From Toxoplasma gondii ME49 (lineage: Eukaryota > Apicomplexa > Conoidasida > Eucoccidiorida > Sarcocystidae), in the NCBI RefSeq assembly GCF_000006565.2, contig NC_031479.1:186001-250000 (forward strand): a DNA stretch of 64,000 bases. Reading direction: 5' to 3'. Positions 37,419 to 64,000 of the stretch are shown here, in pieces. Numbering within the stretch: position 1 is the stretch's first letter; each line of letters begins with the position of its first letter. The notes beneath the pieces were generated by a model, which did no database searches, was not told where the DNA came from, and worked only from the letters and a program-made list of their open reading frames with translations. The position numbers and the translations under genes were made by a program.

Positions 37419-37450
<32 letters not shown>

Positions 37451-37460
37451 TGTATATATG
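37419..37460. repeat. (TA)n microsatellite
   Basis: A TA run with two interruptions near the start of the repeat region. Confidence 0.9.
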
Positions 37461-37968
37461 CGTATAGCCGTGAGAGGAGGGACTGGCGAGGAGAGGGAAA
37501 TGGTCTGTCGTTACTATGGATGGTGATATTGGAAACGGCATCGAATTGCGAAGCAGATGGTGAACGGTAGTCAACCGAAGGACAGTGTCTTGCAAGTGGA
37601 AGCGACGATATATGTCGATGCGTTCTCCAACAAAAGGTGCGAAAGGGGCGGGGGGGGAGAGCGAATGTGACACATTCTACGCAGCTGTGCGAAAAATAAA
37701 AGGGTTGGTGATTAAATAAGGAAGCAGACACAAGACGGTGGACCGAAATGCGGTGAACGGGTGACCGGGACGTCAGTAATGTCTATCTTTTGGATAATCA
37801 GGGCAACGATGTACGGAGCATCTGAAGATAGTTGTGCGGACGACACGGGAGTCGTCCAGCAGCAATTGTGACTCGGAAGCGAATGATGCGGGTTGTATTG
37901 AGTGCGTGCTGAAGGGAGCAAAGCACCAGTTGGGAGACGACCGGAGCGACGTGGAAGCGGGTCCGAAC

Positions 37969-38947
37969 TCGACATGTTTGCGCTTGCCATCGCGAAGACG
38001 CCAGGTCTTCCGCCTCTGCAGGAGAATACCAGCGGACGACAGTGAAGGACAGAGGCATCCGAAATCAAGTTGTCACTTCCGGTGGGTTCGAGTCTCTGGT
38101 GCGGTGGTTCAGCAGGAAACTCTGGTACGCTACCCGTGGAGGGACAGACGCGAGGAGGGTCGTACTGAGATTGGCGGCGTGCGGCGGACGAGCAGAGTCA
38201 GGAAATAACTTTGTAATTGGCCTCTGGTGTGGCGGTGGAACTGCTGCGGAATCGTGAAGCATCCACGATGGGCGTGAGACTGCATGAATAGCGTGACGTG
38301 TGAATGACAGTCGTGGGGAATGGCGAGGCAGATCAACTCTGCACGGGGGACAGCGGCTTTGTCGCTATGTAGGGAAACAGGCGCGGAATGAGTCAGGCCC
38401 GTTAAGGACGAAGCCATAAAGACGGGACGAATGCGAGGATGATGAGGACGAGGTAATGCAGTACCTGTCATCGAACGGGAGCGACGACGTGGAGGGGGCA
38501 CTGCGCGCGACACTAGCCACAGCAGCGCCACTGTGTGGCATGGGTCTGAACGGCGGCGAGGGTGGACTATGAGAGTATATGGGGAGCATGCGCATCTCGT
38601 GAATCCACATGATGTGAAGGTCTCGCAGGTGGCAGTGGCTGTAAATGACGACACGAGCTCGTGTACAACTGCGTATGTTGCTGGGGCGGAGAGCGAAGGT
38701 GCCGCACGCTGCTGGGTGGTGTGCAGGTGAGAGGCGTTGACAATTAGACAGGAAGGTGGACCTGCGGCAGTGGACGGCACTGTTGTTCACGCCGTGGGCC
38801 GCATTCGTCATTACTGGCGTTTGGCAAAGTGGACGGTGGTGGTGTCTGTGCCACCGGTGATCAGGGCGGCGAGGTACGGAATGCTTAGAGCTGCCATAAG
38901 CGATTTGCAAGAGAGGTGGAACGCATTCGAGTCTTAGTCAGGAATGG
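37969..38947 (+). repeat. Segmental duplication, copy 1 (979 bp)
   Basis: Nearly identical and collinear with 45699-46677, offset exactly 7,730 bp with no net indel. Substitutions are few (for example AATCC versus GGTCC near 38602). It contains landmarks A, C, V and B of the old array, so a piece of the array was copied recently. At both ends the two copies pass into diverged but still related sequence. Confidence 0.9.
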
Positions 38948-39047
38948 TGTTAGGGGTGATGAGAGCGAGACAGTGGTAGACCGAGCGAAGCGCATAGTTG
39001 CGACGCGGCAGTCGTGACATGATAACAGGGCCGTGATCAACACATTT

Positions 39048-40960
39048 GCGCTTGGCTTCACGATGTCACCACGGCTACAGTCTCTGTCGTTGAATACTAG
39101 CAGACGTGGCGCAGAGGCCAGAGGGGTGCAACATACATTTGCCACCAGTGCTGTGTGCGAATCGATGGATCGATGCTTATGCAGGATCTGCTAGTACGAA
39201 AGCACCCGATCGATTGGCTGGAGGCCAGCATTGATAGTTGCGAGGGGGGGACCGAGCAGCAGAGCGGAGGGATACTCTCTTCACGGATTGCAACGGTGAC
39301 GGGGGAGACGATGCGGGAGTATGAAGCCACGAGAGATGACTGGCGAGTGAGAATCACGGTAAACGGTGAGTAGGGTAGACTCTGTGCAGAGGTTGGGACA
39401 GGCTAGGTGACCAGTATACAAACCACGATGCATTGAAGAGAAGGACAATGTTCTGCACGCTGAGGTAAACGAGTTGTGCTTTTGTTGAAACATTCAGCCT
39501 CAAATGACGCGGTGCTACTAACGTAGAGAAAAGCTGATGAGTACATAGGAAGGTAGGCACATGATGGAGGACGCGATCGAGGACTGCAATGTTGTGAACG
39601 GGTCCACGGGCCGGGTTGCTGTATGTATAAGTATTCAGACGGATGAATGATGAAGCAGGCGGAGGTGGCTTTTGCGGCAAGTGGGGAGATCTGAGGGCAT
39701 TCATTTCTTCATAGAAGCAGCTAAGGATGGCGATAACGGATCTAGGGCGGAAGGGGCGAAGTAACAGTTTCGAGACAGTCGGCACGACTTGGAAGCGGGT
39801 TTGCGGTCGCCACTATTGCGCTTGCCTTCTCGATGTCACCACGGCTACAGTCTCTGTAGTGGAATACTAGCAGACGTGGCGCAGAGGCCAGAGGGGTGCA
39901 ACATACATTTGCCACCAGTGCTGTGTGCGAATCGATGGATCGATGCTTATGCAGGATCTGCTAGTACGAAAGCAACCGATCGATTGGCTGGCGGCCAGCA
40001 TTGATAGTTGCGAGGGGGGGACCGAGCAGCAGAGCGGAGGGATACTCTCTTCACGGATTGCTATGGTGACGGGGGAGACGATGCGGGAGTACGAAGCCAC
40101 GAGAGATGACTGGCGAATGAGAATCACGGTAAACGGTGAGTAGGGTAGACTCTGTGCAGAGGTTGGGACAGGCTAGGTGACCAGTATACAAACCACGATG
40201 CATTGAAGAGAAGGACAATGTTCTGCACGCTGAGGTAAACGAGTTGTGCTTTTGTTGAAACATTCAGCCTCAAATGACGCGGTGCTACTAACGTAGAGAA
40301 AAGCTGATGAGTACATAGGAAGGTAGGCACATGATGGAGGACGCGATCGAGGACTGCAATGTTGTGAACGGGTCCACGGGCCGGGTTGCTGTATGTATAA
40401 GTATTCAGACGGATGAATGATGAAGCAGGCGGAGGTGGCTTTTGCGGCAAGTGGGGAGATCTGAGGGCATTCATTTCTTCATAGAAGCAGCTAAGGATGG
40501 CGATAACGGATCTAGGGCGGAAGGGGCGAAGTAACAGTTTCGAGACAGTCGGCACGACTTGGAAGCGGGTTTGCGGTCGCCACTATTGCGCTTGCCTTCT
40601 CGATGTCACCACGGCTACAGTCTCTGTAGTGGAATACTAGCAGACGTGGCGCAGAGGCCAGAGGGGTGCAACATACATTTGCCACCAGTGCTGTGTGCGA
40701 ATCGATGGATCGATGCTTGTGCAGGAGCTGCTAGTACGAAAGCAACCGATCGATTGGCTGGAGGCCAGCATTGATAGTTGCGAGGGGGGGACCGAGCAGC
40801 AGAGCGGAGGGATACTCTCTTCACGGATTGCAACGGTGACGGGGGAGAAGATGCGGGAGTATGAAGCCACGAGAGATGACTGGCGAGTGAGAATCACGGT
40901 AAACGGTGAGTAGGGTAGACTCTGTGCAGAGGTTGGGACAGGCTAGGTGACCAGTATACA
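39048..40960 (+). repeat. 770-bp tandem repeat, about 2.5 copies
   Basis: Units start at 39048, 39818 and 40588. The third is truncated near 40960, after CCAGTATACAA, where it passes into a diverged relative of the same sequence. The units are almost identical, with a handful of substitutions and no indel. Each carries landmarks A, C, V and B. Because 770 is not a multiple of three, the array does not encode a continuous repeat protein. Confidence 0.92.
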
Positions 40961-42265
40961 AGACGCGACGCATGAGTGAATCCAGTGTTCTGCACGCTGA
41001 GGTAAGCGGGCGTTCCTTTTCGTCGGTACATTCAGGGATCCGACGTAGGGAGCCAGCGAAGTTGAGCATGAGGAGAGAAGGAGAAAGAGTGGGTAGCCTG
41101 GAGAATGATTTGTGAAAGAAAGCTGTCATCACGATTTCAGCGTGTCAGCTGAAACATCAGTAAACGATGCCATAAAGCATAGATGCGTCGCATTGGCGGC
41201 CTCACGCTCGTAGTTTGTCCGAGTTGACGTGATCTTGTGTATTTGGTTTCTGAGATGGATAGAGTAGGGGCTAGGATGAACGTTAGGGCAGCTCGTGAAC
41301 GGCGACGCTTATGCATAGCCATGGATATATAGCCTTCGGAGGATGGAAGCGTCAGGTTAGCAGTACTATTTGCCGCGCGCCCGTCTCTATGTGACGATGT
41401 CCCCAAGACCGAACGGGTCACCATGAGGGGCGGCGTGAGGAATGTTACAGACATGGTGAACGGTGAGTCAGGTCGAGTTTGTACTAGGACCGGGAGCAGG
41501 GAAGGCGGCGGTGTGCATGTTGGATACATTTGGATGGAGACTCCTCTTGTGGACTCATGGGGTTGGCTTGGTTTACTGTTCGTTTGGATATTCAGGGCTC
41601 TGATGTACAACGGGAATGGTCTCAGGCATATGGGGAGGGAGGTAGAGCAGAGGGAACGGTGCTGGTGGCTGTGTAATGCAGAAGCAGGCGAAAGAGATCG
41701 TGTTTTAGGCGGAACAAGCCTGCTTCCCGTTTGAGGGGACATGAATGTGTTAGACCTGTGTTAAAACGGCGCCGCTAGAATATCGAGGGACAAGACTGCA
41801 AGGCAAAAATGCTTCGCAATAGCGAAAACCCGGTCATAGTCTGCCCGACGAGTTGGTGACGTGCTTTTCCAGTCTGTCGGTAGATATACTATGAAACAGA
41901 ATGGAGGTCAAGGTTCGGCATGGAGACATATCGTTGTAGACATACCCATATGTATAGTTATGCGATGGTGGAATCGCCGGGTGAAGACCACCGTTTGTCT
42001 TGCGCCAATTTCTCCGCACTGGTGCACCAGCCTTGAGAGCATCGGCAGTCAGTGGTGATTTACTCAGCGTGGTGCGGATTTCGGAAGAATGATGGATGGT
42101 GAGGGGCGACGAGTGTGTAGAAGAATCGGAAGCAGGGAAGGCGAGTGTCCACAAGGCAGGCATGATACATGAGAGTGGAAACCAGTGTTGTGAACACATG
42201 CACGGGGCGTGAATGGCTGTCACCGGGATGTTCAGGAAGAGTTGGTAGGGATACGGGGAAGCTTG

Positions 42266-42296
<31 letters not shown>

Positions 42297-42312
42297 TGTG
42301 GGGGGGGGGGGG
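42266..42312 (+). repeat. (GT)n tract followed by a G13 run
   Basis: An alternating GT tract (42266-42294) is followed after a short CTT(G)T spacer by 13 consecutive G (42300-42312). The pair is likely to vary in length and can adopt non-B structures. Confidence 0.9.
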
Positions 42313-42623
42313 AGAAGGATGAGCGAACAAGATAGTGACTGTTTTTTTGAAGGATGGACGGAACATAGGGAGCCGGGCCTCCAGTTGTGAGATGCCATGT
42401 GTTTGTTCGGCTGTAGTGTCTGGAGCCACACGGTTACATATAAGGGGAGGGGGGCAGCCCGGTTTCCATTCAGGTGATTAGAATAGCGAAGGGCGCTTCC
42501 GTGCATGACGGAATCGGCGCTCTGAAAAGACATGCTGATACTTTCGGCGCCGTGGCGAGACGTTGCATCACTTGGAGAATTGGCAGACGAGGGACTAGGT
42601 TGGCACTCGGCGCTGCGTATCAA

Positions 42624-42642
42624 CATATATATATATATATAT
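42624..42642. repeat. (AT)n microsatellite
   Basis: A short alternating AT run within the repeat region. Confidence 0.85.
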
Positions 42643-45600
42643 GGTAGAGCGGACTGGTCAGGTGGATGGCACTGTTTATCTCGCGTGGTTGTAGCTGTGA
42701 CAGCCATCAACATAAGAAGCAGCCGCAAATGGCCTTATTTGTGTCGATGCCACGGCGTGTCTACTGATTCACGGGCATTGAATTGTAAAGCATATCAATT
42801 GTGCACCGGAGCCAAGTCTAGGCATGGCGATCTCACGATGAACACACCACCAGTGAGTGGGGGACACTGGTGTGGACTTATGACTTCGACGAGGTTTCGT
42901 GTGCTTCGAAATATGCAGGAGCCGCCTGTAGGGACTTAGTGGAGGGGATGGAGTCGAGTGAATGGGGGCGTGGAAAGAACTCGATTCCATAGTAACCGAT
43001 ACAAGGAGAAGGCATGGGCTGCCGGTCTAACAGACGGAGTGCACGAGTTATGAGAGACATGGGCGAATTGGAGACGGGGCCACAAGTACCACGTTTGCTT
43101 TTACCAAACGACGACATCACGGATTCCTCCTGCGATCTGGAATAACAAGGGGCGACGATGAACAAGCATGACAAGTGGGTTTAGAATGCGCTCTCTGGCA
43201 TCCTGCCAGGGCTGGTAAGACCTAGTTTATTTTTTTCATTGGTGGATGTAGTAGGGGCTTCGATTGGGGGACGGTTTGGCATCGATACTATCCGTGGGAG
43301 GCGGGACAGGTCGAGTGGAGGACTCGAGATTGTTCGCTTGCCTGAATGGGGGGCATTGAAAAATGTGCCCAATTACGGACGATGCGCAGCTGGTAAGTCT
43401 GCAAGTGCAGGGGGTTTCGAAGGTGACAGTGATGGCGAACGATAAGGCGGGTAGAAATTGTACGGAAGCAAGGAGTAGAGCAGGTGACCGCACGCAAAGC
43501 GTGGGACACTCGAATGCAAGCTCATGATGTGAACGCGTGACGTGGACCGGGGCTGCTGTCCGTCCCGACATACAGGAAGTGCCTGTAGGAGTTCAATGGC
43601 GAATGCGGGGTAGAAAAGAGACACGGGATGAATAAGATTATCCATCAACGGAGACTCTGCGAAGAACTGACCAACTGATGCGGAGCGGGTAAATCGATAG
43701 TTATGTGACGGCGTGGGCGATTTGGTGGCAGTGCCGTTTGCGACAGGCTCGCTGTCGCCTAATGGTGCTGCCATCTTCCAACCGCCCCATTAGAATGACA
43801 GCGGGTGACAGCAGAGATGACAGAAGTGGCGCGTCATGCAGCTTTCGCGTGCGTTATGTTCGAGTGGTTGGTACGGTATGTCTACAGGAACACTTGGTAC
43901 GAAAACGTTCGAGCGAAAGCTGCGAGGCTAGATCCGCTAGTGGAGCTGGGAGGATTGCCTTGCGTGGTCAGTGGAAGATCATCGTGTTCGATAATGTCCT
44001 AAGCGATATGTTAAATTATTGGAATCATGCAGGCCGTGAGTTTTAAAGATCGGGAATGGTGCAGACAATGATGATAAAAGACCATTCAGGAAGTTTCCCA
44101 GATGAGAAGGGATCTTGCGAGGAGCATGAAGGATCCACACTCTAAGGGTTGTTGCAGCTACCGGGATGGTTGTAACCAGACAGGCAGGCAGACATGCAAC
44201 GGTGGACGGCCACGCTGCAAGCGGGCCATCTGTACAGGGTTTGCCATTTCCATGGATACGAAATCTGACGATAGCCTGGCGCGCGAAACTTGGACAGGTG
44301 GGAGGAACTGGGGGGAGAGGAGAGAAGGGAGATCCGTGAGTCGTAAAGAACAGAAGGAGGGCAGAACGAGTGGGTTAAGCAGCGGGTGAGACATCATTTG
44401 TGATGGAGCAAACACGACTTGGAAGCGGTGCCACGTTTGTTTTTGGCTTTTGCCGAAACGGTGCTGCCGCGTTTTGAGCTGGTTAGTTGGCAAAGGTGGC
44501 GATGACCGTTCAACAGACGGGGAGGGGTGCGCTGGCCTGCATTCATACATATTGTGGTCGATGGCTCCGCAGGACTGGACAGTATGTAGACGGCGGAGCG
44601 AGAGCCGAGAGGCTCGTGCCGATAGCGGCACTGGCAGGCTGGACTAGGACACTGCCATGGGCCTGGAATCTGGAGACAACAACTTTGCGGGGTGATGAGG
44701 CGTCTGCAGGGGATATTTCAGTGGGTATGACGAAGGTGTGTCGCAATTGACGATGGAGGTAAATGACAATGAACTTTCAACACACAGCTCTGGAAGAGGC
44801 TGGTGAGGATAACGAAGGTACTACACACTGCGCGCGGGCACGAAAAACGGGCTGGCTGTTATTAGACATCAAGGGAGACTCACCACGCTGGACGCTGTGT
44901 CACGGGTGAACAGGATGATGCTGTACGGAATCTGTGGGTTGGCAATTGTGGGTGGTGATCACAAAAGAGCGGTGCGAGACGTCGGGCACGGCTTGGACGT
45001 GGGACCGCTCCCGAAACGTTTGCTTTTGTGAAAGGGGTTCCGCCACAGTTGGATAGTTCCTTGAGCATAGAGAGCGAGGGCCGCCCAGTGGGAACAATGA
45101 GCGTGTCAGCCAAGACTCACCTGTTCTGGGTTCGAGTGATTGATTCGGTGATTGCGAGGGACTGGGAACTACAGCATGGTTGAGTGATACGCCGTAGACT
45201 CATAGCAATAGTAGCGATGCTGGTCCGACCAGCAACGACAAGGACACTTTGTCGCGGGTCTTGATGGAACCAGTGGAAACGAGAATGGTGATGAAACATT
45301 CGCGGTGACTGTGCGTCGAGAGGCCGAGGGTGCCGCTCAAATCCACGGGGAGGTAAATTGTGATGGAGATTCAACGCAGATGTGAACGGCGCCAGTGGGG
45401 AGAATGGATGTCCTGCACATTACGCACAGACTGGGTTTCGTTAGACACAACATTGGACGCATGTCGGTTCGATGGCAATGCTGTGACCGCTTGAATTGGA
45501 CGGGGACGCTGTGTGTCATGGGCGATCAGGAAGACCACGTACGGAACCTCAGGCAAATGCTGTGTCGATAACAGCGAATGCGCAGAACAGTGGATTGTTA

Positions 45601-45698
45601 ATCGAAGTAGCGAATTACAGGACGAGCCAAGGAAGTGGTAGATTGTGCGAAGCATACAGTTGCTAGACGTGCGCCGCGATTTTGTAGCAGGTGCGTGC

Positions 45699-46677
45699 TC
45701 GACATGTTTGCGCTTGCCATCGCGAAGACGCCAGGTCTTCCGCCTCTGCAGGAGAATACCAGCGGACGACGGTGAAGGACAGAGGCATCCGAAATCAAGT
45801 TGTCACTTCCGGTGGGTTCGAGTCTCTGGTGCGGTGGTTCAGCAGGAAACTCTGGTACGCTACCCGTGGAGGGACAGACGTGAGGAGGGTCGTACTGAGA
45901 TTGGCGGCGTGCGGCGGACGAGCAGAGTTAGGAAATAACTTTGTAATTGGCCTCTGGTGTGGCGGTGGAACTGCTGCGGAATCGTGAAGCATCCACGATG
46001 GGCGTGAGACTGCATGAATAGCGTGACGTGTGAATGACAGTCGTGGGGAACGGCGAGGCAGATCAAGTCTGCACGGGGGACAGTGGCTTTGTCGCTATGT
46101 AGGGAAACAGGCGCGGAATGAGTCAGGCCCGTTAAGGACGAAGCCATAAAGACAGGACGAATGCGAGGGTGATGAGGACGAGGTAATGCAGTACCTGTCA
46201 TCGAACGGGAGCGACGACGTGGAGGGGGCACTGCGCGCGACACTAGCCACAGCAGCGCCACTGTGTGGCATGGGTCTGAACGGCGGCGAGGGTGGACTAT
46301 GAGAGTATATGGGGAGCATGCGCATCTCGTGGGTCCACATGATGTGAAGGTCTCGCAGGTGGCAGTGGCTGTAAATGACGACACGAGCTCGTGTACAACT
46401 GCGTATGTTGCTGGGGCGGAGAGCGAAGGTGCCGCACGCTGCTGGGTGGTGTGCAGGTGAGAGGCGTTGACAATTAGACAGGAAGGTGGACCTGCGGCAG
46501 TGGACGGCACTGTTGTTCACGCCGTGGGCCGCATTCGTCATTTCTACCGTCTGGCAAAGTGGACGGTGGTGGTGTCTGTGCCACATGTGATCAGGGCGGC
46601 GAGGTACGGAATGCTTAGAGCTGCCATAAACGATTTGCAAGAGAGGTGGAACGCATTCGAGTCTTAGTCAGGAATGG
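45699..46677 (+). repeat. Segmental duplication, copy 2 (979 bp)
   Basis: Partner of 37969-38947. Its right half (from 46255) is also shared with 48057-48980 and 52650-53370, so this copy is a mosaic: its left half matches only copy 1, and its right half is common to four places. Confidence 0.9.
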
Positions 46678-47178
46678 CCATAGAGGTGATGAGAGAGAGG
46701 GAGAGAGAGTGGTAGCATGCGATAGCACACAAATGGGAGACGGCAGTCACGACTTGGAGACCGGTCCGCGCTCGACACACTTGCACTGGGGTGCGATCAC
46801 GACGTCGCCACGAGTTCATGCGCTGTACTACGCTGCCGGCGGACGTTGGGGCAAGAGGCAGATTTGATGCCCCGAGCGGCACTCCTCATTTTCACTTTCG
46901 AGTCGGGGCAGGACGCTTTTGAAGCCGTGGTGGAATACACAAAAACGATCACCCAGTGAGCGAGATGCTACCATGACTGTTGTAATGCAAGGGCGGAGCA
47001 GCGTGGTCAGAACACCAGTTGCGCCACGTGGCTGGACGGTATCCGTAGAGAGTGTCGCCGCCTGCTGTACATACTCAGGACGTGAGTGGACACGGGTGTG
47101 TCTCGAGTGTAGTATTGAGGGTGACCAATGAGGCGAGAGGCTATGGCTGTTTGTGACAATGCAGGGAGCAGCTCACGC
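46255..47178 (+). repeat. 924-bp duplicated block, copy b
   Basis: Collinear with 48057-48980 at a constant offset of 1,802 bp, nearly identical, no indels. Beyond 47178 the two remain related but diverge (GCGCCCTCG versus GCACCCACG and onward). Confidence 0.9.
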
Positions 47179-47997
47179 GCCCTCGTACCAACATGACAGG
47201 TGTGAATGTGGGACAGCATTGCGACTGAGTGAAGTAGACGGCGTCGCGTCCGGCCCGAAAACACAAGTGATCGCGGTCAAGAAACGGTGGAGTATGTGTT
47301 GCGGGGCGGCGCGACGAGAGCTCGAGAGATGGCGACCAGTTTGTGGAGGAGTGATGGAACTAACGGAAAGGAGCCTTCCTTGATGCAGCGACACCTATGT
47401 GTGTACCGAGAGTCGGTGTCTGTCGCAACAGGCGATGGTTTTGGAAGGAGCATTGGCGCGTCGTTTTCGTCTGTTCAGAATGACGTAGCGAAGAGGGAGA
47501 CGCCAGAGCGAAATGCATCGCGCCACCGTGCACTCCCTGGTACTGTGGTGGACCAGATGGGTCATATGGTCGACGCTGCTAATCCAGTCCGAGGATGGTT
47601 GGAGCAAGGACTGGAGCTTGCGTGTTTGCGTTCCGTTGGACTATTCAACAACAGTTTGTAGGGATGCGTTGGGGCGTGGCATGTGGGGGGACGGGACAAG
47701 AGACGGGGGAAGAACGGATGTGAGAGCGACTGATGCGTGGAGGAAAGAAGGAACCAAGAGACAGGAGACTCTATCGGTTAGCTGGAAACACGGTCGGGCG
47801 CGGATGTGTGTCCGGAAGGTGGCGTTTTACCGTACTAATGGGGCCGCGGTTGGACGTGATAAATTGTTACACAAAGCAACGAGCGCGCAACGGACTGCGG
47901 CGGTGCGCGGTACCGTGCAGCTTTCTCATGCGTGGTAGGGTGCTTTCGAATGGGTGGAACGCCAGCGCTGCAGGACTGAATGCGACGAACACGGTCG

Positions 47998-49131
47998 AGG
48001 AATGGAGGAGAGCCGTGCAGCGGTAGTGGCGCTGGGAGGAGTGACCTGCCACAGCTGCGCCACTGTGTGGCATGGGTCTGAACGGCGGCGAGGGTGGACT
48101 ATGAGAGTATATGGGGAGCATGCGCATCTCGTGGGTCCACATGATGTGAAGGTCTCGCAGGTGGCAGTGGCTGTAAATGACGACACGAGCTCGTGTACAA
48201 CTGCGTATGTTGCTGGGGCGGAGAGCGAAGGTGCCGCACGCTGCTGGGTGGTGTGCAGGTGAGAGGCGTTGACAATTAGACAGGAAGGTGGACCTGCGGC
48301 AGTGGACGGCACTGTTGTTCACGCCGTGGGCCGCATTCGTCATTTCTACCGTCTGGCAAAGTGGACGGTGGTGGTGTCTGTGCCACCGGTGATCAGGGCG
48401 GCGAGGTACGGAATGCTTAGAGCTGCCATAAACGATTTGCAAGAGAGGTGGAACGCATTCGAGTCTTAGTCAGGAATGGCCATAGAGGTGATGAGAGAGA
48501 GGGAGAGAGAGTGGTAGCATGCGATAGCACACAAATGGGAGACGGCAGTCACGACTTGGAGACCGGTCCGCGCTCGACACACTTGCACTGGGGTGCGATC
48601 ACGACGTCGCCACGAGTTCATGCGCTGTACTACGCTGCCGGCGGACGTTGGGGCAAAAGGCAGATTTGATGCCCCGAGCGGCACTCCTCATTTTCACTTT
48701 CGAGTCGGGGCAGGACGCTTTTGAAGCCGTGGTGGAATACACAAAAACGATCACCCAGTGAGCGAGATGCTACCATGACTGTTGTAATGCAAGGGCGGAG
48801 CAGCGTGGTCAGAACACCAGTTGCGCCACGTGGCTGGACGGTATCCGTAGAGAGTGTCGCCGCCTGCTGTACATGCTCAGGACGTGAGTGGACACGGGTG
48901 TGTCTCGAGTGTAGTATTGAGGGTGACCAATGAGGCGAGAGGCTATGGCTGTTTGTGACAATGCAGGGAGCAGCTCACGCACCCACGTACCAAACATGAC
49001 TGGTGCAAATGTGGGTCGTCACTGCGACGGCGGGAAATAGCTGGTGTCGCCGTTGGCCCAGAAGCGCAGGTGGCCGTGGTGAAGAGACTGTGGTGTCTGT
49101 GTTGTGGTGCGGCGCGGCGAGAGCTGAGTAG
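47998..49131 (+). repeat. Duplicated block, copy c
   Basis: Shares 48057-48980 with 46255-47178. It also shares 47998-48777 with 52591-53370 and 48964 to about 49131 with 53371 to about 53536. It is the complete version of the block. Copy d lacks 186 bp of it. Confidence 0.88.
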
Positions 49132-52590: not shown

Positions 52591-53536
52591 AGGAATGGAG
52601 GAGAGCCGTGCAGCGGTAGTGGCGCTGGGAGGAGTGACCTGCCACAGCTGCGCCACTGTGTGGCATGGGTCTGAACGGCGGCGAGGGTGGACTATGAGAG
52701 TATATGGGGAGCATGCGCATCTCGTGGGTCCACATGATGTGAAGGTCTCGCAGGTGGAAGTGGCTGTAAATGACGACACGAGCTCGTGTACAACTGCGTA
52801 TGTTGCTGGGGCGGAGAGCGAAGGTGCCGCACGCTGCTGGGTGGTGTGCAGGTGAGAGGCGTTGACAATTAGACAGGAAGGTGGACCTGCGGCAGTGGAC
52901 GGCACTGTTGTTCACGCCGTGGGCCGCATTCGTCATTTCTACCGTCTGGCAAAGTGGACGGTGGTGGTGTCTGTGCCACCGGTGATCAGGGCGGCGAGGT
53001 ACGGAATGCTTAGAGCTGCCATAAACGATTTGCAAGAGAGGTGGAACAAATTCGAGTCTTAGTCAGGAATGGCCATAGAGGTGATGAAAGAGAGGGAGAG
53101 AGAGTGGTAGCATGCGATAGCACACAAATGGGAGACGGCAGTCACGACTTGGAAACGGGTCCGCGCTCGACACACTTGCACTGGGGTGCGATCACGACGT
53201 CGCCACGAGTTCATGCGCTGTACTACGCTGCCGGCGGACGTTGGGGCAAAAGGCAGATTTGATGCCCCGAGCGGCACTCCTCATTTTCACTTTCGAGTCG
53301 GGGCAGGACGCTTTTGAAGCCGTGGTGGAATACACAAAAACGATCACCCAGTGAGCGAGATGCTACCATGCAGGGAGCAGCTCACGCACCCACGTACCAA
53401 ACATGACTGGTGCAAATGTGGGTCGTCACTGCGACGGCGGGAAGTAGCTGGTGTCGCCGTTGGCCCAGAAGCGCAGGTGGCCGTGGTGAAGAGACGGTGG
53501 TGTCTGTTGTGGGGCGGCGCGACGAGAGCTGAGTAG
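52591..53536 (+). repeat. Duplicated block, copy d, with an internal 186-bp deletion
   Basis: Matches copy c at an offset of 4,593 bp up to the ATG at 53368-53370, then jumps to an offset of 4,407 bp. The sequence between two ATG triplets of copy c (48775 and 48961) is missing. Confidence 0.88.
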
Positions 53537-56500
53537 GCGGCGACGGGTGTCCCGAGGAGGGAAGGAGGAAATGGAGTCACAGGGGCCTCTGGCTGTGCGT
53601 GACACGTGTGCGCGGGGTGGTGGTGCTTGTAGCGAGTGGATGCCTTGGGGAAAAGAGGTGCCACCATGTGTCCGTGTGTTTTAACGGCCTAGGCTGGTTG
53701 TCAGAGTTGCGCATGCGCGTGTAATTGTAGGCGACTCGTGGCTTTTGTGGTCCGCCGTTTCCGCTGCGACGACATGACAAACAAAGAAGAATGGGGCATT
53801 CGCAGTCGTCACCGTAACTGACGGATGAGGAGAGCGAGGAGTGTGCGTCGTGAACGATTAAAAGGGTCGAGCGTGTGTGGGGGTCAGGTAGAGGGAAAGG
53901 GACGGCCCGCGAATCGGCAAGCAGGGGAATGAAGCGGAGTGTGTCCCACATTTCAACTCGACGTGACTCGGTATCCGTTGGAATATTCAGGATGGTGCCG
54001 TAGGAAACAGGTGGAGGTTAGAGGGGGCGGCGACGGGAGGGGACAGGACAGGAGGGCGCTTTCCTTGTGGAAGTGAGACGAAAGGGAGGCACGGGGCCCT
54101 TCCAATGCGATTTGACAGGTGTGTTCTGGAAATCTGTGTGTGTTGCCGCACATTGCTGCGGAATGATCGACGGTGCCACTTTTCCCGCTTGGCAATCAAG
54201 ACAGCCCGTAACGGCGAGTGATGGGTCAACCACCATCCACCTGTGGTGTATACGAATCGATGGAATGGTGGGACATGCAAATTTGGTTGGTACTCAAAGG
54301 GTTGAGCAAGAGGAGAGAGTCTGGCACTGAGAAGGGTCCTGCGCGTATCGACTGGTAACGTCAAGGAATCTTCCTGTCACGGGTCTTAGTGAAGGCGGTG
54401 GGAACGTCGTGCAGTCATGGGGTATCGGCGTAAGTCGTCACGCGGCCAACGGGGAATAGAGGCGGCGGTTAGAGTCAAATATACAGAGACGGGAGGTAAC
54501 TGTAGGGACAACACCAGCGGCATGTACCATGCGGTGTTGCGGAAAACAGACGATTGGTGGCAAAAATACAGCAGACACATACAGCATGGTAGACGGCCAT
54601 GTTGTGCACGAGTTAGCTGGACCAGGATTGTCTTTCTTCGTGTGCAGTCTGATGATGCATATGTATGGAGCTTGTGGCGACGGGGGTGATGAACGGTGAA
54701 GGAGCGGAAGGAAGTTGCCATTCGGGTGAGCGACAGAGGCAGCATGGATGAACTGGCAACTCCATCTGAAAGACTGACTCGTGCGAGGCACCCGCAGGGT
54801 GACAGGACGGCACGCCGCTCGCGTCACGCTTCAAAAGACACGGTCTTGTCACGTTTTCAGGCGTCCGATAAGAAGAGCAACGGACATCGAAGCGGAGAAG
54901 AGATGCAGAGCATTGGGCGCCTTTCACCTGTGTTCGAATCGTTGAAACTGTGTTGATGCAGATCTCGACGGTAGGAGCACGCTCTTTCGGATACGCCGGA
55001 GGCCAGTACCATCAGCGGTGATAGAACGATCGACACGCCACGACAGGGGATATGCAACTCATCTGTCTGAATGGTACCAGGGAAGAAGGAATGAAGATAT
55101 GGGGCATACAAATTGGTCATGTGTCAACGTGTTGATGAGGCTGGAGAGTGACATACTATGAAGGATGAAGTGGTCGCCTTCGTAAGGGGGCAAGAAGCAA
55201 GTCAGGCGACCGCCCGAAAGACACGACACATTCGAGTGGATGATGTTGTTGTGATCTCATGAGCCGCATGTGGTTTGCTGTGTGTCGGGCATGCTGGAAT
55301 ATTCTGTACGGAACCAGAGGATTCTTTTCCGTCATGCGGGGACAAGGCACTGCAGCGCATAGTCGAGTGCTTGTCTTGTAATGTAGAGCCGGAGGGACAG
55401 GCAGAGTATGTGATGGGAACAGGAAATTAACCGGCATGAGAGGACACTCGTGAATTTGGAGAAGACGCGATTCACCACCGGGTGGCGTCTGAAAACCCGG
55501 TGCCGCCACGGTTTCAGCTTTCCAGGTCAGGTAGCTATGGACGACGGCGCAAACTCCAGATGTGATGAGTCAGCGAGCGCACACGTCGAGCGTGCCAGAA
55601 TTGTCGGGGAAGTGTTTCATTTAGCCCGACTATGAAAGGCGTAAGGGATATCATAGATGTCAGTTGGACACATGCACAACATCTTACATGATGTCATCTA
55701 GGAGACCGGTCCGCGCGCGACAGGTTCGCTCTCGCCACATCGGGCCAAGTCATTCTCAACCGTTCTATAGATAGACTGACACGAAATGTCAGATGAATGT
55801 GCATTTCATCCGTCTGAATAGTGGCGTGGTAGATGGGGGTGAAGATATGGGGTATACAAAGTGGTGGTGACTTAACGAGGTGAGGGGGTTGGAGAGTGAC
55901 AGTCGTAGTAAGCGATGTCGTATGTCGCGTCTGTACAGAAAAAAGTAGCAGGCAAGGCGATGCGCGCCACGAACGACGCATGTGAGTGGATGACACTGTC
56001 GTTAAGACGTAAACTAAACGTGTTTTTTTTTCTCGACGGCGTATTCAGAGTTCGAGTGTAGGGATGCTATCGGATGGGCTGTATAAACGGTTTGGGGGGT
56101 GTAGGATCGTGGATAGGTAAGTCTCTAGCTGACACGGAGGAGGGGTAACAGCGATCATCAGGAGGATGGAACGAAGTTCATGTTACGCGACGGTTTGGGA
56201 GACCCGGATCCCGGGTCGCATAGGACACCTTTGCGTTTATCATTGCCATGCCAGCAGGGCATCCGGCGGTCAATTTTTTAAGCACGAAAAGACTGTGTAC
56301 AGCCGCTGTCAAGCGTTTCATGCAGTGCTCACTAACACGTTTGCATAACTGTCGAGAGGTGGCAATTCCAGTACGAGGATGGACGGAATAGATCCTTCAT
56401 TGTGTGAAGCGAACGCATCGACAGTCTTCATCGGAAACTGCCCACGGCGGGTCAAACAGTCGAGATTGCCGTGAAGCTGAACAACAACACTGGAAAATGC

Positions 56501-58914
56501 GTCCAATGGACAATGTGAAAGTTGCGAATCCAGAAGAAACGGTGTCTCAAGAGCGGTAGTCACTGCGGGCAAGGATGCGGGTACAGCCAGTGGCGGAATA
56601 CTGAGAAGCCCGGGCAATCGAGAGACAGGCCGACACATGCGAGTGGGTGACACTGTTGTAAATGTTGTGGGTGTACAAGGTTTGCTGGTTTTCCGGAAAC
56701 ACAGCCATTGAAGTTATGGACACGGTGAAGTTTAACATGTGGAGGGAAAGGCAGATACTCGATATGAGCGCAACTGTTTTATGAAGAAGAGGCGTGACCC
56801 TGCAGCTGGATCTACCAGTTGTTAGCCGACAGAGATGGACCAGATGCGGCGGTGTGTGTGGTCTGTTAAGTGTCGACATGGGGATGTCGCCGGCGGATGG
56901 GGTGCTACGTTGAAATACCTTAGAACGAGAGCACAGGGAACAGAGGTGGTGCGTCAGCTGCCCCTTCACACGTGTTTCAATCGAATCACCGGAACACTTC
57001 TGCTTCAGGACTGGAGAGCAAGAAGCCGGTCGAGTGCTGGGAGATGGTCTAGAACCGATACGTGCGGTGAGTGGGTCGACGGGACTAGGTATGGAACCAG
57101 AGTGGCCAGGGCATGAACGGCACCACCAGACATGCGCGCGATTGTGGACCATGCGCAGGATGTGAGTCGACAGGCCAGGGTTGTCTAGCCTGTGACACCG
57201 GTAGTATGTAGTGGTGCATGCAAACTGTGCGTGTGTGACAGGAGCTGGTGAGGAGGAGAAAAGCGTGTTGTGCAATATGCGGGAGTGCGACGGGCAGTGG
57301 GTTGGTGGTGAGACAGGTTTGTAGACACACGAGGGTAATCATCAGTGCTGTAAAGCTGTGCTAAGGAAGGGGGTATTGTGTTTTTGAGTGTTCGGGAACA
57401 CCAAATATGGAACCTGTGACGGTGGTTGGACGGGGAGCACAAAAGGTTTAAAGTTGAGGCGATTAAGTGATTGATGCCACTGAGAATGAAGAATTTGTGG
57501 AGCGAGCGAAGCACCAGTTGCGAGAGGGCACCGGTGGCTTGGAAACGGGTCGGCACGCGCCATGTGTGATTTGGCTTAGAAATGCCGCCACGTTTTGAGG
57601 ATTCAGACTTAAATGTTGGCGGACCGACGGCGCACGGAATCGGAGGTGGCACATTATGGGTAGTTTAGATATGGTGTTTTGAAACGATATTATGATGGTT
57701 CTGTACTTGTGGTCGATTCGTACGCGGCGATGCGATAAGGGAGAGGCTAGTATTGAATGTTGCACTGGGCGAATCAACACTCACGGTCAAGGCATGCATT
57801 AGGGGTCTGAACGGTTGCAGTAAAGACCGTATCCATCCTCTGATGCAGGACGCGTGCCAACGAGACAACTGTGTGTCACGAGACAGTGACGGCAATAAGC
57901 AGTGCATGCTCATGACAAGATGTGACAGGAGCCTGTCAGGAGAACAAAGATGCTACACGCTATTCGTTGATACGGAGGACAGATGTGTCGGTGACTGGAA
58001 AGGAAGCCAGACGCTCAAGGAAAGTCAATCACATTGATGTTCTTCATTGAGAATAGCTCGCGGTGACCCACCAGCGGGCACTGTGGGGGTATTCGCCAGG
58101 GCTCAGCCGCACGCTGTTTCCGCAAGACTGGATGCGACGAAGATGGCTGAGTGAGAGGCGAGAGAAGGCTAGCATCAGTAATGGAGATGGGACGATCAAG
58201 TACTACTCAAGCATTCTATATGTCACAGATCTCCAACGTGGCAGTCACAAACACTAGAATCATGAAGCATGCGCGGTGGGAGTGTATCAATACAAATCGG
58301 GCGACGTACGAATGCCTGGCATGGTAAATGTTGCTCAGACAGTGTACGTGCAGGGGTGAAGAACAGGCCAAGCAACCGCGCGCCAAGCGCGACACGCGCA
58401 TGTGGAGACAGTGCTTTGAGCGCGTGAAATGTCCGCGTGTCATGAGTATTTGGATATTCAACAACAGGATGTAAGGAGACCCTGGAGCTGGGCATGCGTC
58501 ATGAAGAAGGAAGGCCAGCGGATAGGAGGGCAAGTGCCGTGAAATGTGGGGCTAGCCGAGAGCTTTCCTGTTAACGACTCGGAGATGATAGAAGTGATTT
58601 GGGATACACAGATGGCCGCCGCATGGTTCCATATGAAAACCATGTGCTGCATATTCGACTAGCCAGAAACGAGGCACTAAGGTCACGCACGACGCACTAT
58701 CGGTTGGTGGACGGCGCGCTGGAGCCGATGGGACGATGTGCATTCACTGCGGCGACGGCCCACGTACTCTTGGATGGACGCTGCTACCATGCGCGTACAT
58801 CCAAGCGTATACATACATATATATACATACTTACGTATGTGCTGAATTCATTCCCTTGCTACAATAATTGTATCAGCTTAACTGTACTCTGACTTTATGC
58901 CTGGAAAAGAAAAA

Positions 58915-59489
58915 ACTGGATGCGCCGCCGGGAGCATGAGCAGCAGCCGGTATCGTGCCAGGCAATTCGGGCCTGCAGCCCGGGGCGGAACAGAACGATA
59001 AGACGATGCGCGCCCTCCGCTTAAGGGGTGGCGGCGGATACCGACACTGGGAGGAGGGGGGGCATACCAAATCAGTGGGGTGCGTCCATGTAGAGGGTCA
59101 TGATCGAGGCGCAAGGGTGGTAGGAAAGCGTCGGTGATTCCTGCATGCGATAGCGTGCGATATTGGAACGAATCGCATTCGACGTCCGGGTTGGTCGTGC
59201 TCATCTGAACGTATGAGCAGGGAGATGCATATTGCCGTACATCAGTTCATATATATATATATATATATATATGTGTCTATGTGTATACGCAGTTTTGTGC
59301 TTGTCTGTGGCACCATTGTTGAGTTTGCCTGTGTCGCTCTGTAACCGTGCGTACCGAGATGTGAGATACTGAAGTGATCACGTGGAGAGATTTGTCGGTC
59401 CAGCGCCGGTGATAATATGACACCGGCCAGGGGCAATCGCTCCTCCCTAGCCGTCGCACGCCTGATACGTCCTAGGAAAGAGCAGCCGG
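58915..59489 (+). repeat. Diverged older copy of the 598/613-bp unit
   Basis: Collinear with the tandem units that follow. It shares GAGGCGCAAGGGTGG, then TTGCCGTACA before a TA tract, then a GACGCCGGCC-like stretch (GACACCGGCC here), with many substitutions between. It shows that the unit existed before the recent amplification. Confidence 0.7.
59249..59272. repeat. (AT)n microsatellite
   Basis: It lies at the position equivalent to the central TA-rich block of the tandem units to its right. Confidence 0.9.
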
Positions 59490-61386
59490 CCCGCTAGTGA
59501 CGTAGACACCCAAGCACGATGCGTCGTGTCGTTCGCCAGGAGCCTGCGGAACAGCCTGTACGGAGCCATGGGATTGGCGCCTGCGAGGCGAGAGCCGGGG
59601 AAAACGATAGGAGGATGGTTAGTGTCGTCGGGTCGAGGGGAGGCGTCAGGGATCGAGAGCTGGAGGAGGGAGGCGCGAAAGGACGGATGGAGTGCGTTCA
59701 TGGGTCGGGTCGGGGTCGAGGCGCAAGGGTGGCAGGAGGGCGTGCGCGATTGCTTCGAGCGACGGTTGGCGTTACGAAAGCGAATCCCATTCGGTGTCTG
59801 AGGCGGCGGTCGAGCCCGTGGCGACGTATCAGTGGGACGACGCACTTGCCGTACAGTGGCCCGCATATATATACATATAGGAATATGTATGTATATATGT
59901 ATATATATATTCGCATGTGTGCATATCTGTATATCCGTCGCTGGATTGCTCTGGACCTGCACGTACTGAGACATGAGGTAGTCTCGTTGTTAGGGGGAGA
60001 GACGTGTCGCTCTCGCGCCGATGATGGTGTGACGCCGGCCTGCCGCAGTCGGTGGTCGTCTAGCCGCGGTGATCGAGCCGCGTCGTAGAGGCGACGAGGG
60101 TGGACGATCGTGATGTAGAGACGCAAGCACGATGCGGCGTGTTGTTCGCCAGGAGCCTGCGGAACAGCCTGTACGGAGCCAGGGGATTGGCGCCTGCGGG
60201 GCGAGAGCCGGGGAAAACGATAGGAGGATGGTGAGTGTCGTCGGGTCGAGGGGAGGCGTCAGGGATCGAGAGCTGGAGGAGGGAGGCGCGAAAGGACGGA
60301 TGGAGTGCGTTCATGGGTCGGGTCGGGGTCGAGGCGCAAGGGTGGCAGGAGGGCGTCCGCGATTGTTTCGAGCGACGGTTGGCGTTACGAAAGCGAATCC
60401 CATTCGGTGTCTGAGGCGGCGGTCGAGCCCGTGGCGACGTATCAGTGGGACGACGCACTTGCCGTACAGTGGCCCGCATATATATACATATAGGAATATG
60501 TATGTATATATGTATATTCATGGTCATATCTTCCGTCGCTGGATTGCTCTGGACCTGCACGTACTGAGACATGAGGTAGTCTCGTTGTTAGGGGGAGAGA
60601 CGTGTCGCTCTCGCGCCGATGTTGGTGTGACGCCGGCCTGCCGCAGTCGGTGGTCGTCTAGCCGCGGTGATCGAGCCGCGTCGTAGAGGCGACGAGGGTG
60701 GACGATCGTGATGTAGAGACGCAAGCACGATGCGGCGTGTTGTTCGCCAGGAGCCTGCGGAACAGCCTGTACGGAGCCAGGGGATTGGCGCCTGCGGGGC
60801 GAGAGCCGGGGAAAACGATAGGAGGATGGTGAGTGTCGTCGGGTCGAGGGGAGGCGTCAGGGATCGAGAGCTGGAGGAGGGAGGCGCGAAAGGACGGATG
60901 GAGTGCGTTCATGGGTCGGGTCGGGGTCGAGGCGCAAGGGTGGCAGGAGGGCGTCCGCGATTGTTTCGAGCGACGGTTGGCGTTACGAAAGCGAATCCCA
61001 TTCGGTGTCTGAGGCGGCGGTCGAGCCCGTGGCGACGTATCAGTGGGACGACGCACTTGCCGTACAGTGGCCCGCATATATATACATATAGGAATATGTA
61101 TGTATATATGTATATATATATTCGCATGTGTGCATATCTGTATATCCGTCGCTGGATTGCTCTGGACCTGCACGTACTGAGACATGAGGTAGTCTCGTTG
61201 TTAGGCGGAGAGACGTGTCGCTCTCGCGCCGATGTTGGTGTGACGCCGGCCTGCCGCAGTCGGTGGTCGTCTAGCCGCGGTGATCGAGCCGCGTCGTAGA
61301 GGCGACGAGGGTGGACGATCGTGATGTAGAGACGCAAGCACGATGCGGCGTGTTGTTCGCCAGGAGCCTGCGGAACAGCCTGTAGG
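59490..61386 (+). repeat. 598/613-bp tandem repeat, three full units and a partial fourth
   Basis: Equivalent ATG positions are 59519, 60132, 60730 and 61343, giving spacings of 613, 598 and 613 bp. Units are nearly identical. The 15-bp length difference lies in the TATATGTATATA block: the second unit (around 60510-60530) has a shorter version. The fourth copy stops at AACAGCCTGTAGGGAGA near 61386. Long open frames exist on both strands in each unit but are closed within the unit and change between the older and newer copies. Confidence 0.93.
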
Positions 61387-64000
61387 GAGAAAAGCGATTG
61401 CATCATGAGGGGGAAACGCAGAACAGGACGATTGAGTGGTGTGTGTGTTTGCGACGAAGTGAGGGCTGCGGAAAACCAGAGGTGCGAAGGGCGGGGGTAT
61501 AACGGTCGGGTGCTGTCGCTGTAGCGGCGGGTCGCTGTAGAGAAGAAGAGGCGCCGGTGGGCGATGTAGGAGCTATCAGTGTCGGACATGTCGGGTGGCT
61601 TATCACAAAGGCATTTATAAGTAGATATGTGAATGATGCCTCGTTTTCTTATAGATGCATGCATTTACACATATGTATGCCTATCGTTATTGAGATGCGG
61701 GAGGACATGGGAGGCTTGCAGCGTCTGGATGCGCGAAATGAGGATGCATCTGCAGTCGGTTTTGGTTTGGTCGACGTGACGAGGGCATCTTGCGAGTCAC
61801 AGTCCTGGTGAAGGTTGAGGCGGTGACAGGACGTTGGAGCGTCATGCGGAGGTCAGTCAACCCGGCCCAAATGGCGGCTCGTGTGTGTGGCAGGCAATGT
61901 TGTGAACTTGTTAAAGGTATGATGCTTGTCATTAGTCGGCCTCTTAACTACGCCGCCACTGTAGGGATGCCGTGATCTTGGGCTTGTGGCAAAAATGAGG
62001 GATCGCAGTTAAGAGGTCGCATTCGCCTCCTGTTGTGATCTGACATTCGTGGTCGGAGGCAATGTGGTGCGCCATACGCTTGCTGCGAAAAGAAACAGCG
62101 TAGCCACGTTAGGAGTAGTCCACTCAAAATGAAACACAGCTGCGACCTCATAGAACACGTGACGGTGTCAGTGCTTCCGGATAATCTGCATTACTGGCGG
62201 GACGTGGTGTGTCCGTTTAGTGCATGGACAGCCCAGGAAGTAGATTTGTCGTGGGCAGCTGAACTGGCTAGCGCAAGGCATCTGTTGTTCGCGGGTCTCG
62301 ATGGTTGCAATGGAGCGTGTGTGCAGTTGTGGAACATGTGCATGCCGCGAGTCGACAGGCGGCGGATGTCTCGTGAGGGTCCATGGTGAGATATGGTGAT
62401 TCGAGTAGAAGGTGGCCAGGCTGACGATGTTGGAGGCGAACAGCAGTGCTACGGACTGCGTTTCTATTGCAGACGGCATGGACCACAACGGCGGGCGACA
62501 ATGTGTTGCATGCATATGCTGCCCAAACGTGTGTTTCTTTACGGATTTTCAGGAGGCTGTAAGGCCGCGATCGACGCGGGTACCATGGGGGAAGGGGTGT
62601 GAGCGGTGGCGGTTACGAGGACGCTTGCGAAATGGAAAACTAAAGGAGAGCTAACAGCGAGGGTGGGGAAGGGGTAGTGAAGTAATGATTGGAGGTGGCG
62701 AGCAGGTGCCACACACTTGGAGGCCAGGCCGTGCACGACCGTCTGCTTCTACAAAAACGGTGCCACACCCCCCGTTTTCAGTGTGTCAATGGGAATGTCA
62801 GCGAGCGAGGCCTCAGACGAGACATATGGCAAGGCGATTCACGGCTCGCTGGTAGCCCGTTCCACAAGGATGCCCTTCGTGATCGTGGACAGTCGTTTTA
62901 AGGCGCATGAATCGCAGATGTGGGCAGCAGCCGACTGAACCACGGCTACTTCTGCTGATGATGCCGAAGGAGCTGCCTTGTTGCACACGGTGCTACATGG
63001 TTCAAGTACAGACTAACTTTAGGTAAAAGGGTACCAGAGGAAAAATCACCATATCTGTACAGCTTGTCATAAAGAATGTGGAGTTCCATGGTGTGTAGCG
63101 CTTCCAGGGTTATCTTTTCAGGAAGGCGATTATGTGCAGGCCTTAGGAGTGGACCTGCTCAGCAACAGGGTGTCACACGCGGCCGTGATGTGTTGCGGCG
63201 GCCAGCCGGTTCGATGTTCTCATTGAAGACGGCTGGCTGGTATCGTGAACGTTCGCGTCGGAAAGGCCTAAATTTGCGCGTCTGGGTAGGCTCAGGAAGT
63301 ACGGAAACCGTGACGTGTGGGGCGGGGCCGCGGAACGGGAAGGCACTGGCGACACCTCTTCCAGCGGACGAGTCCACACGAGGGTGGGGCCTTCCAACCG
63401 CAAGGCGGCAGTTGCAGGCAGGGCCCTGAGACGATCTAGAACATGTTCCGTTTGAGAAGGGTGTGTCAGCAAATATCCAGCCTGACTATTAGGACGGCCT
63501 TGGACGAGTCCGTGAAGAACAGCTGCGGCGCGTCACCGAGCCTTGGCTGATAATTTGCGCGGTCTGGTAGGACGTTGCTTCTTGGGTCCCCTGGGGGATC
63601 TTGCTGTGGCTAGGTGGGACGTCAGGGTCTTGCATGTGATCATACGCTTTTGTGGCAGTGGGAGTGAAGCGTGGTCACGCCACCAGCACTGTCGGTTGCC
63701 GCCGGTCTGGGTGTGATGATAATATAAAGAGGCAGCACCCGACGTTGGCTTGAGCCAACGTGTGTGGAGAATCTCGAGGGCGCAAGAAGGCATCGTGAAC
63801 GGTGAAGAGGGCAGAGCCTGTACAGATGTCAGACACAGTGCAGCAGCTTTGCGCACAGCAGGGCATAAATGAGAGGAGGACGGTGGTCTGAATTAGTGGC
63901 GACGACTGACTCTGCTGTCCGTCTTAACAGGAGCAAACTGTAGGGCCACAGTGGAGTCGGCAATGGAGGGGAAGGCGGGAGCGGGAAAGAGTGTCTGGTG
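61387..64000. other. Right-hand end of the repeat region, no supported gene
   Basis: Single-copy-looking sequence that still carries old landmarks: V near 61794 and 62156, B near 62541 and A near 62717. Open frames reach 117 codons (63076-63429) but lack domains or splice support. No telomere-type repeat is present by 64000. Confidence 0.5.

Follow-up and report, generated by a model that had tools for sequence, protein, structure and literature searches.

A diverged one-strand satellite array with a recurring bipartite box in the interior of Toxoplasma gondii chromosome XI

Introduction

What kind of DNA fills 27 kb in the left part of Toxoplasma gondii ME49 chromosome XI, where no gene is recognised and almost every base resembles another part of the same region? 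The window analysed here is a stretch of 64,000 nucleotides (NCBI RefSeq assembly GCF_000006565.2, contig NC_031479.1, hereafter C13), in which window position 1 is C13:186,001 and the last position is C13:250,000. We take C13 to be chromosome XI, C14 to be chromosome XII, and C1 to C14 to be chromosomes Ia to XII in order. The initial annotation, made from the letters alone, described a strongly diverged direct array with landmarks named A, B, C and V, and saw a possible relative in published Toxoplasma satellites and telomere-associated repeats. In the present study, we examined the structure of this array, its place on the chromosome and its relatives elsewhere.

The array is interstitial, lying at 222.95-250 kb from the left telomere of a 6.62-Mb chromosome. 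At its left end, C13 opens with CCCTAAA repeats over 1.1 kb. Next to them is a 679-bp tandem (C13:1106-2765; 2.4 copies), and the last bases of C13 are TTTAGGG repeats. Since the left subtelomere of this chromosome, XI-L, measures only 88.2 kb (PMC9498087, Table 1), the array is well outside its published extent. According to the passages cited here, the pericentromeric repeats of T. gondii have no mutual similarity and these regions are probably defined by epigenetic context (PMC3302879), and the identities of most subtelomeric repeats are not high (PMC9498087).

Results

A diverged direct array on one strand

The array and its least disturbed stretch are as follows (window positions).

36951..64000, plus strand: diverged direct satellite array of ~660-bp dimers of ~331-bp half-units with strong G skew, delimited by model matches, self-hits and skew edges
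41033..45543, plus strand: least disturbed stretch, from the spacings of the B boxes

The view that a strongly diverged direct array underlies the repeat region was borne out, with the repeats running from 36.95 to 63.97 kb on one strand. When 35-64 kb was compared with itself by sensitive BLASTN (E ≤ 0.01), 155 pairs fell on the plus strand and 2 on the minus strand, and the reversed sequence yielded 5. At E ≤ 1e-3, C13 222.0-250.0 kb gave 133, 0 and 5, respectively. Four stretches of 28 kb from outside the array served as controls: three of them yielded 1/2/0, 1/0/1 and 0/1/1, and the fourth, which was noisy, 17/2/35. Plus-strand self-hits covered 24,834 of the 27,018 bases of the array.

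A profile hidden Markov model (HMM), seeded from 5 units and iterated to 661 positions, found 40 matches on the plus strand and none on the minus strand, all within 36,951-63,968. Further iteration over C13 1-300 kb (E ≤ 0.01) revealed no match beyond the array. The expectation that a single model would tile most of 36-64 kb held for the majority of the array (16,710 of 27,018 bases); however, coverage was incomplete. The initial annotation had also proposed that a model built from half of the copies should recover the other half, and it did so: the model from 36.9-45.4 kb gave 20 matches (E ≤ 1e-3) in 46.95-64 kb, all on the plus strand, and none at this threshold either in the reversed sequence or in any of 20 dinucleotide shuffles. 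Among these 20 matches, 4 overlap recent copies (84-91%) of left-half blocks and 16 do not. Merging at an identity of at least 75% left 33 of 41 copies, with a mean pairwise identity of 0.462 (474 pairs).

The landmarks recur on the same strand, as had been described. Weight matrices for V, B, A and C, which were built from the array itself, found 23, 40, 24 and 28 plus-strand sites and 0, 0, 2 and 0 minus-strand sites; all 35 landmark sites listed earlier were also displayed. The spacings of B in 41.0-45.5 kb (560, 640, 683, 657, 1338 and 616 bp) are near the values first given. Several younger events are also present in the array.

39046..41035, plus strand: recent tandem duplication, period 770 bp, ~2.6 copies, 93-97% identity
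37918..39073, plus strand: recent block duplication, partner 45647-46812, 93% identity
46246..47348, plus strand: recent block duplication, partners 48048-49151 (95%) and 52641-53370 (99%)
58926..61563, plus strand: younger tandem, period ~608-613 bp, 3-4 copies

The tandem at 58.9-61.6 kb matched the HMM weakly and in the region of model positions 96-186 alone (E 0.0018 to 0.02).

The edges of the array differ. The right edge is sharp and, judged by skew, overruns the window slightly, to ~64,400. The left edge is gradual, with a GC skew of 0.18, 0.11 and 0.12 per kb from 36 to 34 kb and values near zero beyond. TTTAGGG and CCCTAAA each occur once in the window, both outside the array, which therefore has no telomere repeat. 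Two unplaced contigs, L003 (C1591, 968 bp) and L041 (C1203, 708 bp), match parts of the array at 98% and 99.9%; the assembled array may thus be short of copies.

A dimeric unit and its bipartite box

The proposed ancestral unit near 0.65 kb was supported, with a length of ~660 bp. When the unit profile was compared with itself, the best offset was 331 of 660, with a score of 15.26; 40 column permutations reached 12.58 at most. The ~660-bp unit is a dimer of ~331-bp half-units. In this register, landmark B aligns with the end of landmark C, both reading CAGG-N8-GTA followed mostly by [C/G]G. Landmarks B and C are the same 17-bp bipartite box, CAGG-N8-GTA[C/G]G (CAGG-N8-GTASG). Its copies in the array are listed below.

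37799..37815, 38862..38878, 41033..41049, 42233..42249, 42916..42932, 43573..43589, plus strand: box CAGG-N8-GTASG, exact count
44911..44927, 45527..45543, 46592..46608, 48394..48410, 49760..49776, plus strand: box, exact count
52987..53003, 53988..54004, 63928..63944, plus strand: box, exact count
38113..38129, 39182..39198, 39952..39968, 40722..40738, plus strand: box of the C-landmark type, exact count
43885..43901, 45843..45859, 49369..49385, 51407..51423, plus strand: box of the C-landmark type, exact count
41593..41609, plus strand: box with one mismatch

The B box is represented by ten columns, which were chosen because they looked conserved. Their mean majority frequency is 0.891, above the 0.618 of all 582 columns and the 0.471 of the inner 8, and their register ranks first among 511 registers of equal spacing. 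Conservation is lower at the C box (nine columns, 0.761). On its plus strand the array contains 22 exact boxes, and on its minus strand none. When the spacing k in CAGG-Nk-GTA was varied from 0 to 24, the array peaked at k=8 (27 sites; next highest, 7), and CAGG.GTA ranked first among 10,405 N8 pairs of a 4-mer and a 3-mer. The full box averaged 0.36 in 100 dinucleotide shuffles of the array and 0.51 in those of the left subtelomere, with a maximum of 2.

The box in the left subtelomere of chromosome XI

The box was defined from the array and then counted elsewhere. C13 30-92 kb contains 14 exact boxes on the minus strand and none on the plus strand, and C13 1.1-30 kb contains 3 and none, 2 of them in the 679-bp tandem. 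In the left-end satellites combined, 17 boxes lie on the G-rich strand and none on the other. In the flanking DNA (~181 kb, both strands), we found 1 plus and 0 minus boxes at 92-222.9 kb and none on either strand at 250-300 kb. The spacing profile on the subtelomeric minus strand also peaked at k=8 (18; next highest, 14), whereas that of the flanking DNA was flat, with 12 at spacing 8 in a range of 8-22. After near copies were dropped, 12 subtelomeric boxes were left. An early weight-matrix scan had given an excess of the C landmark in the subtelomere (20 vs 4), in line with the box. The 20 bp upstream of the box are common to array and subtelomere (z 6.2) and are T-rich in the latter.

The XI-L subtelomere (C13:30,000-92,000, L018-L024) has diverged one-strand direct arrays of its own, with a C skew of -0.15 to -0.19, and a ~288-bp tandem occupies its 38.8-51.6 kb. 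No similarity of these arrays to the array in the window was detected beyond the box region.

Distribution of the box across the genome

With two further upstream letters, the box was in excess genome-wide: TTCAGG-N8-GTASG occurred 123 times against 60 for its backward control, and TGCAGG-N8-GTASG 149 times against 65. The positions described below are those of the matches listed, of which 96 and 100 were assigned to C1-C14; the TGCAGG list reaches C13 only, so that C14 is outside it. Subtelomere borders were set with the lengths in PMC9498087 (Table 1).

Among the matches listed, all 38 in left subtelomeres (7 ends) are on the minus strand and 54 of 56 in right subtelomeres (10 ends) on the plus strand, i.e. 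both point toward the telomere. Boxes were present in 17 of the 26 published subtelomeres among these matches. Interior matches listed are mixed, with 22 plus and 24 minus for TTCAGG and 33 plus and 19 minus for TGCAGG. Interior same-strand clusters among the matches listed are the chromosome XI array, C8 1.095-1.164 Mb (plus) and C5 2.19-2.23 Mb (minus). The polarity of the array does not point toward the nearest telomere; it is plus, on the left part of chromosome XI.

The C8 cluster (C8:1,095,000-1,163,543) has at least 9 plus-strand boxes over 70 kb of the chromosome interior and is a second interstitial candidate. Near the right end of C4, at least 22 boxes lie at C4:2,478,771-2,497,222 with a mostly regular ~724-bp period; this cluster is probably a young homogeneous box-bearing satellite. 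The inverted cluster on C5 falls where PMC4008256, in the passage cited, places TgTASL_IV, described as the only inverted telomere-associated sequence-like (TAS-like) region (2,179,605-2,207,233 in an older assembly).

One relative of the unit itself was reached on C14 through the B pattern. The 3-kb locus L037 at C14:694.8 kb matches the HMM on the minus strand (E 9e-20). This island is short: alignments to the array span ~C14:694.0-695.0 kb, with local C skew and one box. A DNA search with the C14 piece matched only itself, and searches with window 39820-40500, 43400-46000 and 61600-64000 and with a 660-bp consensus matched only the chromosome XI array and the unplaced contig C1591, although the first look of such searches can miss diverged copies.

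Composition and coding potential

The GC skew of individual kilobases over 37-64 kb is 0.13-0.32, and that of the whole array is 0.257. Strand-biased mutation from unidirectional replication or transcription could in principle produce both the G skew and the character of the array, and the opposite sign in the left subtelomere, set against ~0.26 here, would suit it. However, letters deviating from A/T-majority columns are G in 318 cases and C in 333, G>A and C>T changes occur at 0.124 and 0.136 per site, and the skew is concentrated at conserved columns (0.42 vs 0.06 at variable columns). Since substitutions between copies have no G bias, the skew appears to be inherited or kept and not currently mutational. 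A mutational origin of the skew was ruled out on this pattern, and we consider the broader explanation by strand-biased mutation very improbable.

Stop-to-stop frames of at least 150 amino acids number 3 on the plus strand and 26 on the minus strand of the array, compared with 0-2 and 5-11 in five mononucleotide shuffles. Simulations preserving trinucleotide content (n=40) gave a mean of 20.2 on the minus strand (maximum 26) and 3.1 on the plus strand, and thus composition nearly explains the minus-strand surplus. All 11 frames of at least 200 amino acids are on the minus strand, and no Pfam match was found in the 4 of these 11 that were scanned. Protein coding was rejected because frame numbers resemble those of the Markov controls and these 4 frames gave no match. 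Neither an Rfam match at gathering score nor a tRNA was found in the window. We regard the array as an island with no recognised gene; a relic of minus-strand coding sequence in it is improbable. The trinucleotide signatures of the array, the subtelomere and the TgTASL_XI stretch shift together relative to the left flanking DNA (r 0.81-0.85); we give this little weight because all comparisons share one reference.

Neighbouring genes

To the left of the array, a frame of 1,415 amino acids (window 25.3-29.6 kb) has 73% identity to Hammondia hammondi HHA_306890. Farther left, plus-strand frames at window 17581-19720 encode a PUA domain and an RsmB/F-type RNA methyltransferase domain and are probably exons of one NOL1/NSUN-like gene. 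To the right of the array, L005:8667-9578 (plus strand) has a weak match to the LON substrate-binding domain (E 5.8e-05), under the Pfam cut-off; four other frames scanned there had no Pfam match.

Discussion

Relationship to known satellites

The suggested link to published Toxoplasma satellites stood in part: what ties the array to other satellites is the 17-bp box and not overall similarity, and the view that the array belongs directly to a published satellite or TARE family was not supported. Clemente 2004 reportedly describes two 350-bp-like repeats per 680-bp monomer. The array is similar in scale only, with 331/660 bp against the ~350/680-bp unit of Sat350/Sat680 (TgTARE1) (PMC4008256). 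The same source, in the part cited, places TgTASL_XI at 634-27,485 of chromosome XI with Sat350/Sat680 as its first block, and from its period and place the 679-bp tandem is presumably Sat680. Like the array, this tandem has the box in both copies (C13:1381 and 2060), in the minus polarity of a left end. Direct membership of the array in Sat350/Sat680 or TgTARE1, for which the similar dimer architecture, the box and the 679-bp tandem at C13:1106-2765 might argue, nevertheless seems hardly credible. The HMM scored the two tandem copies at the level of noise (E 3.8 and 9.9). Over C13:1-92,000, which includes TgTASL_XI, its best E was 0.18 compared with 0.62 for the best of five shuffles, and BLAST gave no match. 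A gene-bearing stretch of DNA gave 7 weak BLAST matches to the array (best E 1.7e-05) and the subtelomere gave none. Direct Sat680 membership was therefore rejected against the 679-bp tandem, which stands in as a proxy for the published letters. Location differs as well: in the passage of PMC9498087 cited, sat350/sat240 blocks are subtelomeric only, apart from one next to the centromeric region of chromosome IV, whereas the array is interstitial at 223-250 kb.

The array also resembles the TAS-like regions and gene-poor subtelomeres, which have few or no recognised genes and diverged one-strand repeats; a gene-poor, mostly terminal cluster described in PMC9131526 shares its high GC skew. TAS-like regions are characterised by the conserved order TARE1/A/TARE2/B/TARE3/C and a TSF gene at the end. 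In contrast, the array is interstitial with the opposite polarity. Furthermore, TAS-like regions are stated to obey strand parity (PMC4008256), and the array, with a skew of 0.257 against -0.067 for the TgTASL_XI stretch, does not. Since the array departs from Sat350/Sat680 in sequence and location and from TAS-like regions in parity, and shares architecture and box with known satellites, we regard it as a new chromosome-XI-specific satellite subfamily.

Two systems outside Toxoplasma work in a similar manner. The mammalian CENP-B box is one conserved spaced motif in otherwise drifting satellite monomers; it differs from the T. gondii box in sequence, and the latter is mainly subtelomeric. We know of no protein that binds the CAGG-N8-GTASG box. 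The nearest analogue in mode of action is the SPE2 sites of P. falciparum, bound by the ApiAP2 protein PfSIP2, which are short sequence-specific sites in subtelomeric tandem arrays linked to heterochromatin and to the biology of chromosome ends; however, their motif is different, GGTGCAC being listed for SIP2 (PMC6631176).

A probable interstitial island of subtelomere-type satellite

We conclude, with a probability of roughly 0.6, that chromosome XI here carries subtelomere-type satellite heterochromatin in an interstitial position, an island in which the box has been kept as a protein-binding site. A ~331-bp half-unit was duplicated into a unit of ~660 bp, which was then amplified head to tail. 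Its copies have diverged to a pairwise identity of 46%, and a few blocks have been duplicated recently. A nuclear protein with sequence specificity, such as an ApiAP2 factor, may bind the box, and this reader could nucleate or maintain silent chromatin on satellites that are otherwise free to drift. If such a silence-seeding protein binds the box, the array may be silent chromatin and a candidate XI pericentromere. Heterochromatin marks and a scarcity of transcripts are reported for the satellites and TAS-like regions of T. gondii (PMC4008256 and PMC9498087, passages cited), and small RNAs match Sat350 and Sat529a (PMC2877743).

Several results weigh against this conclusion. Owing to its shortness, the plain box is no commoner genome-wide (967) than its backward control (1,134), and an excess emerges only with two extra upstream letters. 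The polarity counts come from 100 of the 123 TTCAGG matches and 100 of the 149 TGCAGG matches; right-end borders were placed with measured lengths for C13 and C14 and with assumed lengths for the other chromosomes. Each copy in a tandem was counted separately, such that one C4 array provides 22 of the 54 right-end sites. The two right-end sites of wrong polarity are on C6 and C12, where each strand has one site, and the plain-box matches listed include a left-end site of wrong polarity at C1:2494 (plus). In the XI-L subtelomere, CAGG.GTA is only sixth of 14,441 N8 pairs, a second spacing peak occurs at k=2 (14), probably from copies of the ~288-bp tandem, and few boxes lie near the telomere (3 exact). 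The inner 8 bp (z -3.1) and the downstream 20 bp (z 0.6) are not common to array and subtelomere. Because only the upstream 20 bp are shared, the comparison does not discriminate between descent of the box from a common ancestor and its independent recruitment.

Other explanations

Instead, chromosome XI may have its centromere here, or its pericentromeric heterochromatin, an explanation that would overlap with the preferred reading and not exclude it. The TgChromo1/H3K9me3 regions of chromosomes II, V, IX, XI and XII are reported to contain ~1000-bp repeats present 2-5 times (PMC3302879), and the array likewise has near-identical blocks of 1168, 1223, 1105 and 987 bp and a ~608-613-bp tandem in 2-4 copies on a 27-kb island without a recognised gene, well outside XI-L. 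However, most other chromosomes have no interior box cluster among the matches listed. Since only C8 and C5 do, the box does not mark centromeres in general, and we consider the centromeric explanation a real possibility that falls somewhat short of even odds. A displaced chromosome end is less probable and, in our opinion, rather unlikely. An inversion with a breakpoint in XI-L, or a fusion, would have moved the block to 223-250 kb and reversed it, which fits the plus polarity and skew of the array against the minus of XI-L, the sharp right edge and the precedent of an inverted TAS-like region on IV (PMC4008256), where the boxes at C5 2.19-2.23 Mb are inverted. It fits poorly with the lack of homology between the array and XI-L beyond the box region, the absence of telomere repeats from the array, and its gradual left edge (skew 0.11-0.18 per kb at 34-37 kb).

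We are similarly doubtful that the box and the unit are a phylogenetic remnant, in which one ancestral monomer has decayed and the box is its last readable part, without function. A common monomer scale (331/660 bp in the array, 679 bp in the telomere-adjacent tandem, and box periods of ~655 bp on C11, ~708 bp on C12 and ~724 bp on C4 among the matches listed) and the shared upstream 20 bp (z 6.2) would be expected from such decay. A conservation of ~0.9 at ten positions around a free 8-bp core, in copies averaging 46% identity, would not. Very unlikely, finally, is a transcribed and spliced non-coding RNA locus, in which a T-rich tract with CAG|G would act as 3' splice acceptor and GTASG as 5' splice donor. 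The T-rich upstream positions of subtelomeric boxes and the acceptor- and donor-like look of B and V by eye are compatible with splicing; however, position +4 of the donor would be C or G, the window lacks an Rfam match at gathering score, and the passage of PMC4008256 cited reports TAS-like regions without transcript data.

Implications for Toxoplasma chromosomes

We met no description of such a box in the literature searched on T. gondii satellites, although Clemente 2004, which is said to report conserved regions within Sat350, may contain part of it. A box of fixed spacing and direction in otherwise dissimilar satellites provides a concrete DNA target in the search for a reader protein. 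It is also a polarity marker able to expose chromosome ends that have been moved or inverted. We tentatively speculate, at a strength below that of the centromeric explanation, that all T. gondii satellites, subtelomeric and interstitial alike, share one strand-polar box, read by a dedicated heterochromatin-seeding protein that gives chromosome ends their direction, and that the chromosome XI array is an ancient chromosome end or centromere that kept its boxes as the rest decayed to 46% identity. If true, a hidden sequence rule would lie beneath chromatin that has been thought to be defined by epigenetic context.

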